A DNA stretch of 64,000 nucleotides from Streptomyces cellostaticus (GTDB taxonomy: Bacteria; Actinomycetota; Actinomycetes; Streptomycetales; Streptomycetaceae), in the NCBI RefSeq assembly GCF_023630175.1, contig NZ_JALLIN010000009.1:101888-165887 (forward strand). The letters are read 5' to 3'. The translations under genes were made by a program, and so were the position numbers. Below, in pieces: positions 14,328 to 21,340 of this stretch. The notes below the pieces were generated by a model that saw nothing but the letters and a program-made list of their open reading frames with translations, ran no database searches and was not told the origin of the DNA. Position 1 is the stretch's first letter. Every line of letters begins with the position of its first letter.

Positions 14328-14411
14328 TGCGGCCGGTGGGATTCGAACCCACACGGGCGTGAACCCACTGGGACCTAAACCCAGCATGACTGCCAGTTCC
14401 ATCACGGCCGC
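14328..14411 (-). tRNA. tRNA-Leu, anticodon UAG
   Basis: On the minus strand the RNA begins GCGGCCGTGATGGAACTGG and ends with GGTTCGAATCCCACC and the acceptor strand CGGCCGC plus discriminator A. The seven acceptor pairs are perfect. The anticodon stem CTGGG/CCCAG encloses the loop TTTAGGT, giving anticodon UAG (leucine, CUA codons). A long variable arm follows, as expected of a class II tRNA. CCA is not encoded. Confidence 0.95.
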
Positions 14412-16529: not shown

Positions 16530-16889
16530 GTGAGCGCCAACAGAAACGTACAGAGCACCCCCCATCACGACAAGCTGCCCATTCGGATGCTGCATGACCG
16601 GGTGCTGGTCAGGCAGGAGACGGGCGAGGGTGAGCGGCGGTCGGGCGGCGGCATCCTGATTCCCGCCACGGCGGCGGTCGGGCGCCGGCTGGCCTGGGCC
16701 GAGGTGGTCGCGGTGGGCCAGAACGTGCGCACCGTGGAGCCGGGCGACCGGGTGCTGTTCGACCCGGAGGACCGGGCCGAGGTCGAGGTGCGGGGCGTGG
16801 CGTACGTGCTGATGCGGGAGCGGGATCTGCACGCGGTGGCCGCGGACCGCTTCGAGGGCGCGGAGGACTCCACGGGGCTCTACCTCTGA
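16530..16889 (+). CDS. GroES-like co-chaperonin, no GroEL partner nearby
   Basis: A 119-residue protein of the GroES fold from GTG 16530. It has LPIRMLHDRVLVRQ, a mobile-loop segment GEGERRSGGGILIPATA, then AWAEVVAVGQNVRTVEPGDRVLFD and a final VLMRERDLHAV. Compared with canonical GroES (about 100 residues) it has extra residues at both ends and a changed mobile loop. No groEL gene is adjacent, and streptomycetes keep groES-groEL1 and groEL2 elsewhere, so this is a paralogue. It may cap a chaperonin under special conditions or have another role. Confidence 0.85.
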   Translation: MSANRNVQSTPHHDKLPIRMLHDRVLVRQETGEGERRSGGGILIPATAAVGRRLAWAEVVAVGQNVRTVEPGDRVLFDPEDRAEVEVRGVAYVLMRERDLHAVAADRFEGAEDSTGLYL

Positions 16890-16929
16890 GGTACCGCTTG
16901 CCGCCGTCGCTTTGCTACGTTCGGGGGAG

Positions 16930-16972
16930 CCCGACGAGACGCGCCGTACCGGGATGCAGGCAAAGACGACGC
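16930..16972 (+). promoter_or_regulatory. Guanidine-III (ykkC-III) riboswitch
   Basis: The segment reads CCCGACGAGACGCGCCGTAC, then cggg, a linker, then CAAAGACGACGC. As I remember it, this matches the compact ykkC-III consensus known from Thermobifida fusca (ACGAG, GCGCCGUAC, AAGACGGCGC). P1 forms from CCCG (16930-16933) and CGGG (16950-16953). The pseudoknot forms from GCGCCGT (16941-16947) and ACGACGC (16966-16972) with one C-A mismatch. It lies upstream of a SugE/Gdx-type exporter, the classic target. The GGAGG of that gene is 22 bases downstream, so translational control is likely. Confidence 0.83.
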
Positions 16973-17008
16973 ACCAGGAATGGGTTCGTCCACCGGAGGT
17001 GTGTCGTC

Positions 17009-17329
17009 GTGGCGTGGGTTCTGCTGATCGTCGCCGGGCTGCTCGAGGTAGCCTGGTCGGTGGGGATGAAGTACACCGACGGGTTCACCCGGCCGGTCCC
17101 CAGTGTGTTCACGGGGGCCGGGATCGTGGCCAGCATGGTGCTGCTGTCGTACGCGGCGAGGTCGTTGCCGATCGGCACGGCCTACGGCGTGTGGGTCGGG
17201 ATCGGGGCGGCCGGGGCGGCGGTGCTCGGCATGGTGGTGCTGGGTGAGCCGGTCACCGCCGCCCGGGTCTTCTTCGTCTGCCTGCTGCTGGTCGCCGTGG
17301 TGGGGCTCAAGGCGACCGGCGGTCACTGA
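17009..17329 (+). CDS. gdx: SMR-family guanidinium exporter (Gdx/SugE type)
   Basis: A 106-residue protein with four membrane helices. It carries the SugE/Gdx pattern: GLLEVAWSVGMKYTDGFTR around the essential glutamate in helix 1, then SLPIGTAYGVWVGIGAAGAAVLG in helix 3 and a final VVGLKATGG. Members of this subgroup exchange guanidinium for protons and need dual-topology dimers. GTG at 17009 is 8 bases after GGAGG at 16995-16999. A guanidine-III riboswitch precedes it, which supports the substrate assignment strongly. It converges on the penicillin-binding protein gene with 9 bases between stops. Confidence 0.93.
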   Translation: MAWVLLIVAGLLEVAWSVGMKYTDGFTRPVPSVFTGAGIVASMVLLSYAARSLPIGTAYGVWVGIGAAGAAVLGMVVLGEPVTAARVFFVCLLLVAVVGLKATGGH

Positions 17330-17338
17330 CGGGCGGGC

Positions 17339-20300
17339 CTACTGCTGGCCCCCGGTGGCCCCGGTGTCGGTACCGCCGCCCGTGTCCAGCCCTCCTCCGG
17401 TGCTGCCGCCGGGGGTGCCGCCGCCGGTGTCCGTGCCACCGCCCGTGGTCGTCGCACCACCGTCGGCGCCGCCGCCCGTGGTCGTCGCCCCGCCGTCGGT
17501 GGTGCCTCCGCCGTCGGTGGTGCCGCCGTCGGTGGTGGTGCCGCCGCCGTCGGTGGTGGGGGTACCGCCGGTGGTGGGGGTGCCGCCGGTGGTGCCCCCG
17601 TCGGTGCTGGGGGTCCCGCCGGTGGTGCCCCCGTCGGTGCTGGGGGTCCCGCCGGTGGTGCCGCCGCCGTCCGGGGAGCCGGTGCCCGGGTCGCCGGTGG
17701 GGTCGGCGGGGGCCTGGGTCTGGTCGGCGCCCGGCTGGAGCCGGAGGTCGAAGTCGCTGACCGGCTTCCCCTTCAGGGCGTCGCGGGTGTACTGGGCCCA
17801 GATGGCGGTGGGCGGGCCACCACCGTTCATCCGGGGCTGGCCCAGGGCGTAGTACAGCGACTTGTGGGCCGCGGTGACCGGGTCCTGGCCCATGACGGAG
17901 ACCACGGTGGCGAGGTTCGGGGTGTAGCCCGCGAACCAGGCGGCGGTGTCCTCCTCGGCGGTGCCGGTCTTGCCCGCCGCGGGACGGCCCGCGGCCTGGG
18001 CGGCGACGGCGGTGCCGTTGTCGACGACGCTCCGCAGGACCGAGGTGGTCGTGTCGGCGGCCTCGCGGGTGACGGCCCGCCTGGTCTGCCGCTCGGGCAG
18101 CTCGATCTGCTGGGTGCCGTTCTTGGTGACCTTCTTGACCATGGTGTACGTGGCGCGCTGACCGTGGTTGGCGAGCGTGGCGTAGGCCTCCGCCATGTCG
18201 AGGACGCTGGCGGTGGCGGTGCCGAGGGCGATGGACGGGTAGGGCTGGAGGTCCTTGGTGCCCTCGGGGATGCCGAGCTGGACGGCGGTCTGCTTCACCT
18301 TGGCGGGGCCGACGTCGACGGCCATCTGGGCGTAGACGGAGTTGACCGACAGATCGGTGGCCTTGCGGACGGTGATGTCGCCGTACGACCTCTCGTCCTC
18401 GTTGGCCGGGCTGTAGCCGCCGCCGGTCCAGCCCTGCACGGGGCGCCTGCTCGTGCCGTCGTAGATGGTGTTCGGGGTGATGGGCCGGCTGTCCTGCGTG
18501 GTGGAGCTGTTCTGGACGGCCGAGGTGAACACGAAGGGCTTGAAGGTGGAGCCGACCTGGAAGTCACCCCGGGTGGCGCCGTTGGTGTACTGCTTCACGT
18601 AGTCGATGCCGCCGTACATGGCGACGATCTCGCCGGTCTTGGGGTCGACGGAGGCGCCGCCGGCCCGGACGTAGTTGTCGGCCTTGCGGTTCTTCTTGTC
18701 GAGCTTGGAGATGAGCTGGTCGTCGACGGCCTTGACGAAGGCGTTCTGCCGGCCCTTCTGGATGGTGGTGGTGATCCGGTAGCCGCCGGCCTCGAGTTCG
18801 TCGGAGGTGACGATGTCGTTGCTGATCAGGTACTTCCTGACCGCGTCGACGAGGTAGCCGCGCTGGCCGGACAGGCCGTTGGGGACGATCTGGTCCCTGG
18901 TCGTGGGGAACTTCAGTCCCGCGCGCTCACCCTGGTCGAGCCAGCCCTCCTTGACCATGCCGTCCAGGACGTAGTTCCAGCGGGCGACGGCGGCGGGCTT
19001 GTTCTCGGGGTGCGCGACGACGTCGTACTCGCTGGGGGCGTTGACGAGGGCGGCGAGGTAGGCGGCGCGGGCCGGGTCGAGGTCCGCGGCGTCCTTGCCG
19101 TAGTAGGCCTGGGCGGCGGCCTGGATGCCGTAGGCGCCGCGGCCGAAGTAGCTGGTGTTGAGGTAGCCCTCCAGGATCTCGTCCTTGGACTTCTCCCGGT
19201 CCAGCTTCATCGAGATGAAGAACTCCTTGGCCTTGCGGGTGACGGTCTGCTCCTGGCCCAGGTAGTAGTTCTTCACGTACTGCTGGGTGATGGTCGAGCC
19301 GGACTGCTTGCCCTTGCCCAGGGCCGTGTTCCAGCCGGCGCGGAGCATGGCCTTGGGGTCGACGGCGGACTCCGAGTAGAAGTCGCGGTCCTCGGCGGCC
19401 AGGACGGCGTGCTGGGCCGCCTTGGAGACCTTGGCGAGGCTGACGTTCTCGCGGTTGACCTTGCTGTCGCGGGTGTCGCGGGCGAGCTGGGAGCCGTCGG
19501 CGTAGAGGTAGACGTTGCTCTGCTTGGTCGCGAGGGCGTTGGCGGACGGGATCTGCACCATCGAGTAGCCGAGGAAGAACAGGCCGATGACCAGCATGAC
19601 GCCGATCACGAAGGTGCCGAGCAGCATGCGCCAGGTGGGCACGAGGCGCCGCCACCCGGTCCGCTTGGGCCGCTTGGGCTTCCTGCCCTTGCCGCCTCCG
19701 CCGCCGTCGGCTCCGCCGCCGCTGTCCGCGTCGGTGGTGGTGGCGGGGGATTCGGCGGCGGTGGTCTTCCCGGTGGCTGCGGCGGACGCGGCGGCGCCCG
19801 CGGCGGCAGCCCCGGCCTTGGCCGCGCCGCCACCGGCCGTCGTGGCCGGGGCGTCCTCGGCCGCGCCGCTGCCCGTGGCGGCCAGGGCCGCCGTGCCGGC
19901 ACCGCTTCCCGTGGCGGCACGGGGGCCCGTCCTGGGGCCGCCGGGCGCGGCGGCCGGGCCGTCGCTCTTCGCGGCGGTGGTGCCGTCGCCCGGCCGGGCC
20001 GGCTCGGACGTGGTGGAGGCCTTGACCTTGCGGAGGACCTGCGTCGTCTCGGGCGCCTGGGCGTCCCCGGGTCCCCGTCCGCCGGACGTCTTCCCGTCGC
20101 CCGCCTCACGGGCCGCCGAGGCGCCCTCGGCGGCGGAGGCACCGGATGCGTCGACGCGACGGAGCACCTGGGTGCTCTCGGCCGCTTCGGGCTCCCCGGT
20201 CCCGGGCCGCTGCGTCTCCCGCGACCGGGCGGACTCCTGCGGCTGCCCGGCCCGGCCGGGCGCTCCGGGGCGCCGGGGGGTCGCGGGCCGCTCGGCCGCC

Positions 20301-21139
20301 GGGTTCCGGGTGCCGTCGGCGCCGGACTTCGCGGGCCCCTGCGGCTCCCCCGCCTGGCCGGGCACCCCGGGCCGCCCGGGCGCGGGGGAACGCCCTGCCG
20401 CCCGCTGCTCGGAGTCCTGGGACTTCCCGGACCCCGGCGACCGCCCCGGCTGCCGGGGCAGGCCGGAGCGCGGGGAACCGTCGGCACGTCCGGCCGCCCG
20501 GCCCTCGGGGCCCTCGGGCTTGCCGGGGCCCTGCGGCTTGCCCGACTGCTGAGGTACGCCGGGACGCCACGCCCCCTCGGCTTCCGGCTTCCGGGGCCCG
20601 TCGCCCTTCCCCGGCGCCTGCGCGGGCACACCGGTGCGGTGGCCCTCGGCGCCCCCGGGCCCGCCCGGTTCCCCGGACCTTCCGGCCTGCTGGGCGGGCA
20701 GGCCGGACCGCGGCTCGCGGGGCGCCCCGGCCCCGGTGTCCGGGGCGTCCGGGCCGTTCGCGCGGGCGGCCCGGCCCATCTGGGCGGCCAGGGCCGCGCG
20801 GCGGGCCCGGGCGGCCTGGTCCGCGCCGGCGGCCGAAGACGACTGACCGCCAAGGGTGCCGTCGACCGGCGATCCGGCCTTCTCCTCCCGGCCACCCCGG
20901 TTGGGCCCGGCGGCCGCGGCTTCCCGGTCCGTGTTCCGGCCCTGGCCCCGGCCCTGGTCCTGATTCGACCCCGGCCGGTCCTTGCTGCTGCCCCGGTCCC
21001 GGCCGTCGCCGTCTGCGGGCCGGCTGTCTGCGCCGGCACCGCCGGCGGCCTCACCGGATCGTGCGGGCCCTGCAGCCGGCAGCGGTCGTTCCGGTGCCCC
21101 GCCCTCGTTCGGCTGCTGCGGCTGCGGCTCGTCGCTCAT
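17339..21139 (-). CDS. Class A penicillin-binding protein with long tails
   Basis: A 1266-residue bifunctional peptidoglycan synthase. The first roughly 480 residues are a Pro/Gly/Arg/Ala-rich, low-complexity cytoplasmic tail. A membrane helix follows near 500-525 (MLLGTFVIGVMLVIGLFFLG). The glycosyltransferase (GT51) domain includes AAEDRDFYSESAVDPKA near 580 with the catalytic glutamate, and GSTITQQYVKN. The transpeptidase domain has the active serine in GSTFKPF near 865 and KTGTAEED near 1057. A Gly/Thr-rich external tail ends the protein with 33-base repeats. ATG 21139 was chosen as start, although GTG 21145 is closer to AGGAG. It polymerises and cross-links the cell wall. Confidence 0.94.
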   Translation of the reverse strand: MSDEPQPQQPNEGGAPERPLPAAGPARSGEAAGGAGADSRPADGDGRDRGSSKDRPGSNQDQGRGQGRNTDREAAAAGPNRGGREEKAGSPVDGTLGGQSSSAAGADQAARARRAALAAQMGRAARANGPDAPDTGAGAPREPRSGLPAQQAGRSGEPGGPGGAEGHRTGVPAQAPGKGDGPRKPEAEGAWRPGVPQQSGKPQGPGKPEGPEGRAAGRADGSPRSGLPRQPGRSPGSGKSQDSEQRAAGRSPAPGRPGVPGQAGEPQGPAKSGADGTRNPAAERPATPRRPGAPGRAGQPQESARSRETQRPGTGEPEAAESTQVLRRVDASGASAAEGASAAREAGDGKTSGGRGPGDAQAPETTQVLRKVKASTTSEPARPGDGTTAAKSDGPAAAPGGPRTGPRAATGSGAGTAALAATGSGAAEDAPATTAGGGAAKAGAAAAGAAASAAATGKTTAAESPATTTDADSGGGADGGGGGKGRKPKRPKRTGWRRLVPTWRMLLGTFVIGVMLVIGLFFLGYSMVQIPSANALATKQSNVYLYADGSQLARDTRDSKVNRENVSLAKVSKAAQHAVLAAEDRDFYSESAVDPKAMLRAGWNTALGKGKQSGSTITQQYVKNYYLGQEQTVTRKAKEFFISMKLDREKSKDEILEGYLNTSYFGRGAYGIQAAAQAYYGKDAADLDPARAAYLAALVNAPSEYDVVAHPENKPAAVARWNYVLDGMVKEGWLDQGERAGLKFPTTRDQIVPNGLSGQRGYLVDAVRKYLISNDIVTSDELEAGGYRITTTIQKGRQNAFVKAVDDQLISKLDKKNRKADNYVRAGGASVDPKTGEIVAMYGGIDYVKQYTNGATRGDFQVGSTFKPFVFTSAVQNSSTTQDSRPITPNTIYDGTSRRPVQGWTGGGYSPANEDERSYGDITVRKATDLSVNSVYAQMAVDVGPAKVKQTAVQLGIPEGTKDLQPYPSIALGTATASVLDMAEAYATLANHGQRATYTMVKKVTKNGTQQIELPERQTRRAVTREAADTTTSVLRSVVDNGTAVAAQAAGRPAAGKTGTAEEDTAAWFAGYTPNLATVVSVMGQDPVTAAHKSLYYALGQPRMNGGGPPTAIWAQYTRDALKGKPVSDFDLRLQPGADQTQAPADPTGDPGTGSPDGGGTTGGTPSTDGGTTGGTPSTDGGTTGGTPTTGGTPTTDGGGTTTDGGTTDGGGTTDGGATTTGGGADGGATTTGGGTDTGGGTPGGSTGGGLDTGGGTDTGATGGQQ
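17583..17648. repeat. 33-bp tandem repeat in the PBP C-terminal tail
   Basis: Two full 33-base units beginning CCGCCGGTGGTGCC at 17583 and 17616, with a third partial unit at 17649, encode the 11-residue unit GGTTGGTPSTD on the minus strand. Surrounding codons give looser variants of the same Gly/Thr pattern. Such repeats readily change copy number between strains. Confidence 0.85.
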
Positions 21140-21340
21140 GTCGTGCACGGACTCCTGTTTCGCGTCGTACGTTTCCCGTACGCCTCGTACGCCTTCTGCC
21201 CCCGGTTGGAAGACTCTCGCACCTGGCGATCCGTTCCCGGATCCCGGCACGCTTCCGGCACGAAAATGCGTCGCCGGTCGCGGGCCTCAGGACTAGGCTC
21301 CTGCGCTTCGGTGTCGAGCGGCCCGGGGAGGTTGACTGAC

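Follow-up and report, generated by a model that had tools for sequence, protein, structure and literature searches.

A predicted guanidine-III riboswitch before a Gdx-type SMR gene of Streptomyces cellostaticus, with a candidate off helix at its ribosome binding site

Guanidine-III riboswitches have 237 unique representatives, mainly in Actinobacteria, and in the part of the J Bacteriol 2025 review available to us (PMC12186494) they are described as working by release of the Shine-Dalgarno (SD) sequence and by protection from RNase E. For example, the Thermobifida fusca aptamer (PDB 5NWQ, PMC5696562) lies upstream of an SMR exporter, with the ribosome binding site (RBS) 16 nt downstream, and has been suggested to be a translational ON switch. 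According to the sections of PMC5696562 at hand, it is an H-type pseudoknot with an ACGAG core, the words GUACC and AAGAC, and the ligand-contacting bases C6, G7, and G17; its stem P2 has seven pairs and triplexes with G9, G10, and U11, of which G10 and U11 sit on the pairs C15-G38 and G14-C39. The same sections describe the vicinity of the RBS as prone to structure formation and expect bound guanidine to destabilise the competing structures. Gdx-Clo (PDB 6WK5, 8VXU) is a guanidinium exporter of the SMR family, and Trp16 separates Gdx from Qac proteins, the Qac subtype having Gly or Ala (PMC7695847, in the part available). Guanidine is released by Streptomyces lusitanus during naphthyridinomycin synthesis (PMC12186494, same part), which fits the remark in a first-pass annotation of our locus that streptomycetes meet guanidine.

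In this study, we analysed a window of 64,000 nucleotides from Streptomyces cellostaticus (assembly GCF_023630175.1, contig NZ_JALLIN010000009.1, positions 101,888 to 165,887 of the forward strand), to which all coordinates refer. The locus is an ordinary, genus-wide example of a guanidine-III switch before an exporter gene. Its RNA class, gene class, logic, and host group were already known, and the element added here is a candidate off helix.

Aptamer and exporter gene

The window was scanned with 4227 Rfam families, and the guanidine-III covariance model RF01763 scored 38.3 bits at 16909-16975 (+) (E 0.00019; gathering score 36), so the check that the first-pass annotation had named came out above the cut-off. 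In the whole 7.14 Mb genome, this is the only RF01763 match (E 5.0e-6). The aptamer core spans 16930-16972 and the Gdx-type SMR gene lies downstream:

16530-16889, + strand: gene of a GroES-like protein (PF00166, 67.9 bits against 21.1), an upstream neighbour outside the switch
16930-16933, + strand: 5' strand CCCG of the pseudoknot helix (P1 of PMC5696562), pairing with 16950-16953
16934-16938, + strand: ACGAG core, from the sequence, including the equivalents of C6 and G7, ligand contacts in the part of PMC5696562 at hand
16939-16940, + strand: third-strand bases A10 C11 (G10 U11 in the T. fusca crystal RNA, same source)
16941-16947, + strand: P2 5' strand GCGCCGU, with C16944 mismatched and G16946 equivalent to the ligand-binding G17
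16941-16949, + strand: GCGCCGTAC motif, from the sequence
16950-16953, + strand: 3' strand CGGG of the pseudoknot helix, from sequence and covariation
16963-16972, + strand: AAGACGACGC motif, from the sequence
16966-16972, + strand: P2 3' strand ACGACGC, with A16969 opposite C16944
16995-16999, + strand: SD sequence GGAGG, from the sequence
17009-17329, + strand: gdx-type SMR gene (SugE/Gdx), GTG start, 106 aa

All four pseudoknot pairs CCCG/CGGG are perfect, and the words GUACC and AAGAC are both present in the core. C6, G7, and G17, aligned to the numbering of PMC5696562 (sections at hand), are kept as 16935, 16936, and 16946. In P2 (GCGCCGU/ACGACGC), six of the seven pairs are standard, the third strand reads GAC, and the C-A mismatch at pair 15/38 is scored positive in Rfam's own RF01763 alignment. 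Compared with the T. fusca RNA as given in that source, the pseudoknot is CCCG/CGGG, the third strand carries A10 C11, pair C15-A38 is mismatched, and the RBS lies 22 nt downstream. The compact ykkC-III pattern that had been claimed from the letters (ACGAG at 16934-16938, GCGCCGTAC, and AAGACGACGC) was found in the sequence, as was the stem and pseudoknot with one mismatch, which is C16944/A16969. The annotation had called this stem P1; the stem itself stands, but the available text of the crystal-structure paper (PMC5696562) names it P2. The 22 bases that it had counted between stem and RBS are 16973-16994, which separate the stem end from GGAGG. By family match, the RNA at 16930-16972 is a guanidine-III aptamer, predicted to bind guanidine.

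The encoded protein carries the SMR domain PF00893 (Pfam, 90.9 bits against a cut-off of 23.7), and its nearest solved structures are the Gdx-Clo entries 6wk5 (E 1.1e-32) and 8vxu (E 2.3e-32), with similarity over the full length, whereas EmrE chains reach E 1.3e-7 or worse. The Gdx-Clo residues Glu13, Trp16, Ser42, and Trp62 are all kept. The best NCBIfam match is the model of E. coli SugE (NF008512) with 121.9 bits, which is under the curated cut-off of 126, and we therefore name the protein Gdx-type and not a SugE equivalog. Compared with Gdx-Clo, it is an actinobacterial sequence with a GTG start, for which transport is predicted by similarity. These matches agree with the earlier assignment to the guanidinium-exporter type of SMR protein, and 17009-17329 likely encodes a guanidinium exporter. 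The observation of this RNA and this gene was real, and the reading of both classes is supported.

The GroES-like neighbour at 16530-16889 matched NCBIfam GroES models at scores under their cut-offs. The gene at 17339-21250 (-) is convergent with the exporter gene; its product is a penicillin-binding protein of the PBP1A family, which scored 420.1 bits where the NCBIfam cut-off is 508.75 and carries a long C-terminal repeat rich in Gly, Thr, and Asp. At 14328-14411 (-), the tRNA model (51.1 bits) marks a tRNA gene whose variable arm is long. RF00442 had no match in this genome, so there is no second guanidine switch of that family; for classes II and IV, the scan with all Rfam families covered the 64-kb window. 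For a urea or guanidine carboxylase, the genome gave partial matches only, none above the cut-off of TIGR02712, a model that gave below-cut-off matches in most controls too.

Inheritance, promoter, and P2 mismatch

RF01763 was found in 249 of 295 genomes of the same genus, 243 of them above the cut-off, and in 146 of 345 genomes drawn from the class, 140 of them above the cut-off. The 80 nearest loci were picked by protein similarity only, and all their records are titled Streptomyces; the motif lies upstream in 78 of them by script, and in the remaining two (L240, L259) it was recognised by eye, with AAGGAC for AAAGAC as the single core change. The AAAGAC core is called over 97% conserved in the part of PMC5696562 at hand, and the change in these two loci possibly means lost or altered binding. 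Some SMR protein occurs in 45 of the 46 genus genomes without RF01763. No stretch of at least 70% identity to the exporter protein was found in 42 of the 46; partial stretches occur in G104, G105, and G117, and a full-length one in G145 only. In G145 the gene is intact and the aptamer, seen by eye, is present with a long loop insert, because of which the model missed it. In G104 (locus L183), inspection by eye showed the aptamer, the promoter, and about the first 41 codons deleted together; the 3' part of the gene remains, and the GroES-like gene is retained. As judged from these genome sequences, RNA and gene travel together across the genus, and the earlier statement that they support each other is borne out by their joint inheritance and loss. 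A guanidine sensor with its exporter is a usual part of Streptomyces genomes.

The comparisons below draw on 181 loci, sampled mostly by RF01763 score or from chosen genera and therefore non-random, of which 176 were parsed (L024, L043, L063, L107, and L180 were missed by the pattern). The stem and RBS tallies use the 150 parsed loci whose called start resembled an SMR start; the other 26, with other genes or doubtful starts, were dropped.

One further feature lies eight bases before the pseudoknot:

16913-16921, + strand: TGCTACGTT, predicted extended -10 element, from TGnTAnnnT conservation

TGnTAnnnT occurs within 60 bases upstream in 75 of the 85 loci of the same type, compared with 2.3% of shuffled upstream sequences, and 74 of those 75 elements end 7-11 nt before the pseudoknot. 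Among the protein-chosen loci, 73 of 78 carry it, 63 of these at 7-11 nt. From this conserved element we infer that the mRNA starts at the aptamer, near 16928, with the pseudoknot at its 5' end. Bases 16909-16929, the initial 21 of the Rfam match, probably belong to the promoter rather than to an RNA stem. Of the five pairs in the Rfam 5' stem, two are marked non-canonical at this locus. That stem as real RNA in Streptomyces is disfavoured, since TGnTAnnnT occupies its place in 75 of the 85 loci; compared with T. fusca and Rfam, our locus probably has a -10 element in place of the Rfam 5' stem. A GC-rich inverted repeat precedes the -10 element in many relatives (by eye, 25 sequences); none was found in the window.

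If the pseudoknot forms the extreme 5' end, which the -10 element suggests, it would suit a role in mRNA stability, in which the ligand-bound pseudoknot blocks RNase E type scanning and the RBS pairing described below is a side effect. This mechanism is stated for guanidine-III in the available part of the J Bacteriol 2025 review, which cites Richards and Belasco 2021 (PMC12186494). It is compatible with, and not exclusive of, the control of translation that we prefer; as it leaves the fit of stem strand to RBS across stem classes unexplained, we consider it unlikely to be the main action of the switch.

Covariation was measured on 70 of 157 distinct aptamers, hand-picked for spread. Pairing was found in 94.0% of cells against 84.6% after shuffling, both partners vary in 8 of 11 pairs, and the covariation score is 0.241 against 0.083; in the pseudoknot helix, 99.6% of cells are paired and three of the four pairs vary on both sides. 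A functionless chance match, to which a bit score just 2.3 above the cut-off would lend some weight, was rejected on this covariation, the genus-wide presence, and the joint loss with the gene, and its probability seems to us negligible.

Pair 15/38 is exceptional, being non-standard in 23 of the 70 aptamers. Of the 150 SMR-linked aptamers, 85 have the third strand GAC, and 84 of these show C15-A38 (the remaining one has U-A), a combination absent from all 65 with other third strands. Six of the 84 loci come from another family of the class (f17). The mismatch is also found in 77 of the 78 protein-chosen loci. Judged by these alignments, the C16944/A16969 mismatch is a lineage feature tied to the altered third strand. 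With G10 and U11 sitting on C15-G38 and G14-C39 in the crystal (PMC5696562, sections at hand), both G10 and G38 have become A here. The combination may stem from one old event, so the counts speak for linkage and do not prove a new triple.

Because its third strand and P2 depart from those of the crystal RNA, with A10, C11, and C15-A38 in place of G10, U11, and C15-G38, the RNA might sense a ligand other than guanidine. We believe this to be very improbable: the ligand-touching C6, G7, and G17 are unchanged, the changed triplets lie above the pocket according to the available text of PMC5696562, and the gene is nearest to guanidinium exporters.

Candidate off helix and proposed mechanism

Two stretches around the aptamer's 3' strand and the RBS can pair with each other:

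16965-16975, + strand: GACGACGCACC, P2 3' strand and tail, predicted anti-RBS strand, from duplex energy and pair probability
16998-17008, + strand: GGUGUGUCGUC, last two SD bases and onward to the start codon, predicted to pair with 16965-16975

The helix has 11 bp with one G-U, and A16969, unpaired in P2, pairs with U17004 in it. All folding energies given here ignore ligand, pseudoknot, and triplex. The duplex energy of -20.9 kcal/mol is the best of the 150 loci; no other 21-mer among 42568 taken from both strands of the window, at every third position, equalled it, nor did any of 197 other SD-start sites, the best of which reached -14.6. Computed alone, P2 has -5.3 and the off helix -19.0 kcal/mol. 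The pair probability of the off helix is 1.00 in the transcripts 16928-17040 and 16928-17060, and 0.77 in the shortest one tested (16926-17024), where the off fold has -42.9 and a rival pairing is best at -43.2.

In relatives, the two equivalent stretches fit with bulges. An energy of -13 or lower was reached in 61 of the 85 same-type relatives, compared with 4 of the 197 background SD sites; among protein-chosen loci, 28 of 78 reach -13 and 68 of 78 reach -10, compared with 12 of 197 background sites at -10. The relatives in these tallies are related to each other and are not independent loci. Across eight P2 stem classes, the own RBS fits the stem strand better than swapped RBSs (exact p 0.0007, about 29 of 40320 permutations), and five controls (reversed strand, P2a, codons 2-8, codons 9-15, and an upstream stretch) gave p 0.20-0.34. 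This class signal fell to p = 0.088 once the SD was masked and the strand shortened to 8 nt. In the class matrix, the RBS of the main type pairs better with the stem strands of some other classes (-14.3) than with its own (-12.9). Outside the main type, the RBS was also compared with P2a for plain shared words, with no signal of imitation (3.03 own, 2.93 swapped). When P2 was forced, the predicted mean SD accessibility went from 0.27 to 0.30 in the 85 same-type loci and from 0.50 to 0.48 in the 65 others, with a gain above 0.3 in only 6 of the 85 and 8 of the 65, and at this locus it went from 0.49 to 0.47. Against the off helix stand this lack of a general SD release, the masked class test, the rival pairing in the shortest transcript, and the 28 of 78 protein-chosen loci at -13.

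Pairing of 16965-16975 with 16998-17008 is likely the off state. The available part of PMC5696562 speaks solely of competing structures, and the off helix was not found in the literature searched, which lacked the primary validation paper of the class; it may already be published. The 2017 structure paper named no off state in the sections at hand, and a concrete, mutable candidate for the class is thus given here.

We believe that the aptamer probably turns on exporter translation upon guanidine binding by keeping its own 3' strand off the RBS. Transcription would start near 16928, with the pseudoknot at the mRNA 5' end, as inferred above. By similarity and covariation, the aptamer would then fold as an H-type pseudoknot with a triplex, guanidine binding being predicted. 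Without guanidine, 16998-17008 is predicted to take 16965-16975 from the free ACC tail inward, so that the weak, mismatched P2 is displaced and the ribosome site is buried. With guanidine, the aptamer would retain its 3' strand and leave the ribosome site free, and the encoded protein, going by its family, would export guanidinium. The best fold of -43.2 compares with -16.6 for the forced aptamer, both computed without pseudoknot, triplex, and ligand. With such a large gap, either switching has to be kinetic or this copy is mostly off; the model needs co-transcriptional folding, with the aptamer already formed when the RBS is transcribed.

An off helix too strong for switching, which would leave the gene locked off or leaky-low and the switch decaying, is quite improbable in our view. 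It would agree with the strongest off helix of the 150 loci, the mismatch in P2, and 38.3 bits being among the lower RF01763 scores in the genus listing. Yet the mismatch is a lineage rule (84 of 85 GAC aptamers, 77 of 78 protein-chosen loci), the core bases are all kept, the identical perfect helix is present in the neighbour Streptomyces sp. 1-11 (L228), and bit scores drop as loops lengthen (L3 measures 7-44 nt across 78 loci).

Beyond ligand-controlled access to the RBS, we tentatively speculate, and are inclined to doubt, that the Streptomyces-type guanidine-III RNA forms a sub-class of its own. It would have a 5'-terminal pseudoknot and a fixed C-A mismatch held by an A10-A38 third-strand contact; the RBS would mimic the P2 strand of the aptamer and invade P2 from the ACC tail, guanidine would decide the strand-exchange race, and the mismatch would set the trigger level. 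The conserved mismatch and the strand exchange are open to point-mutant analysis.

Other genes behind guanidine-III aptamers

In the part of Weinberg 2010 at hand, speB is among the ykkC-III genes. Some of our loci also have genes other than SMR genes behind the aptamer. In 7 of the 176 parsed loci (L042, L053, L061, L082, L165, L166, and L178, aptamer mid-locus), the aptamer precedes a metallo-beta-lactamase-fold protein sharing the words WIHGSPSAKHNTDPDIQVH; the one protein of this type that was scanned (L212:4075-4953) matched PF00753 with 44.1 bits. It is possibly a guanidine-related hydrolase, going by its sequence.

A small CBU_0592-type membrane protein lies behind the aptamer in L140, L154, L160, L161, and L163, and by eye in L121. 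The CBU_0592 name was not found in the literature searched. The one protein of this type that was scanned (L213:3890-4138) matched NF047864 with 44.5 bits against a cut-off of 25, and we regard the type as a candidate non-SMR guanidine exporter. In L094, L096, L098, L099, and L105, the aptamer is followed by a longer protein that contains the words EAAPTINDR.
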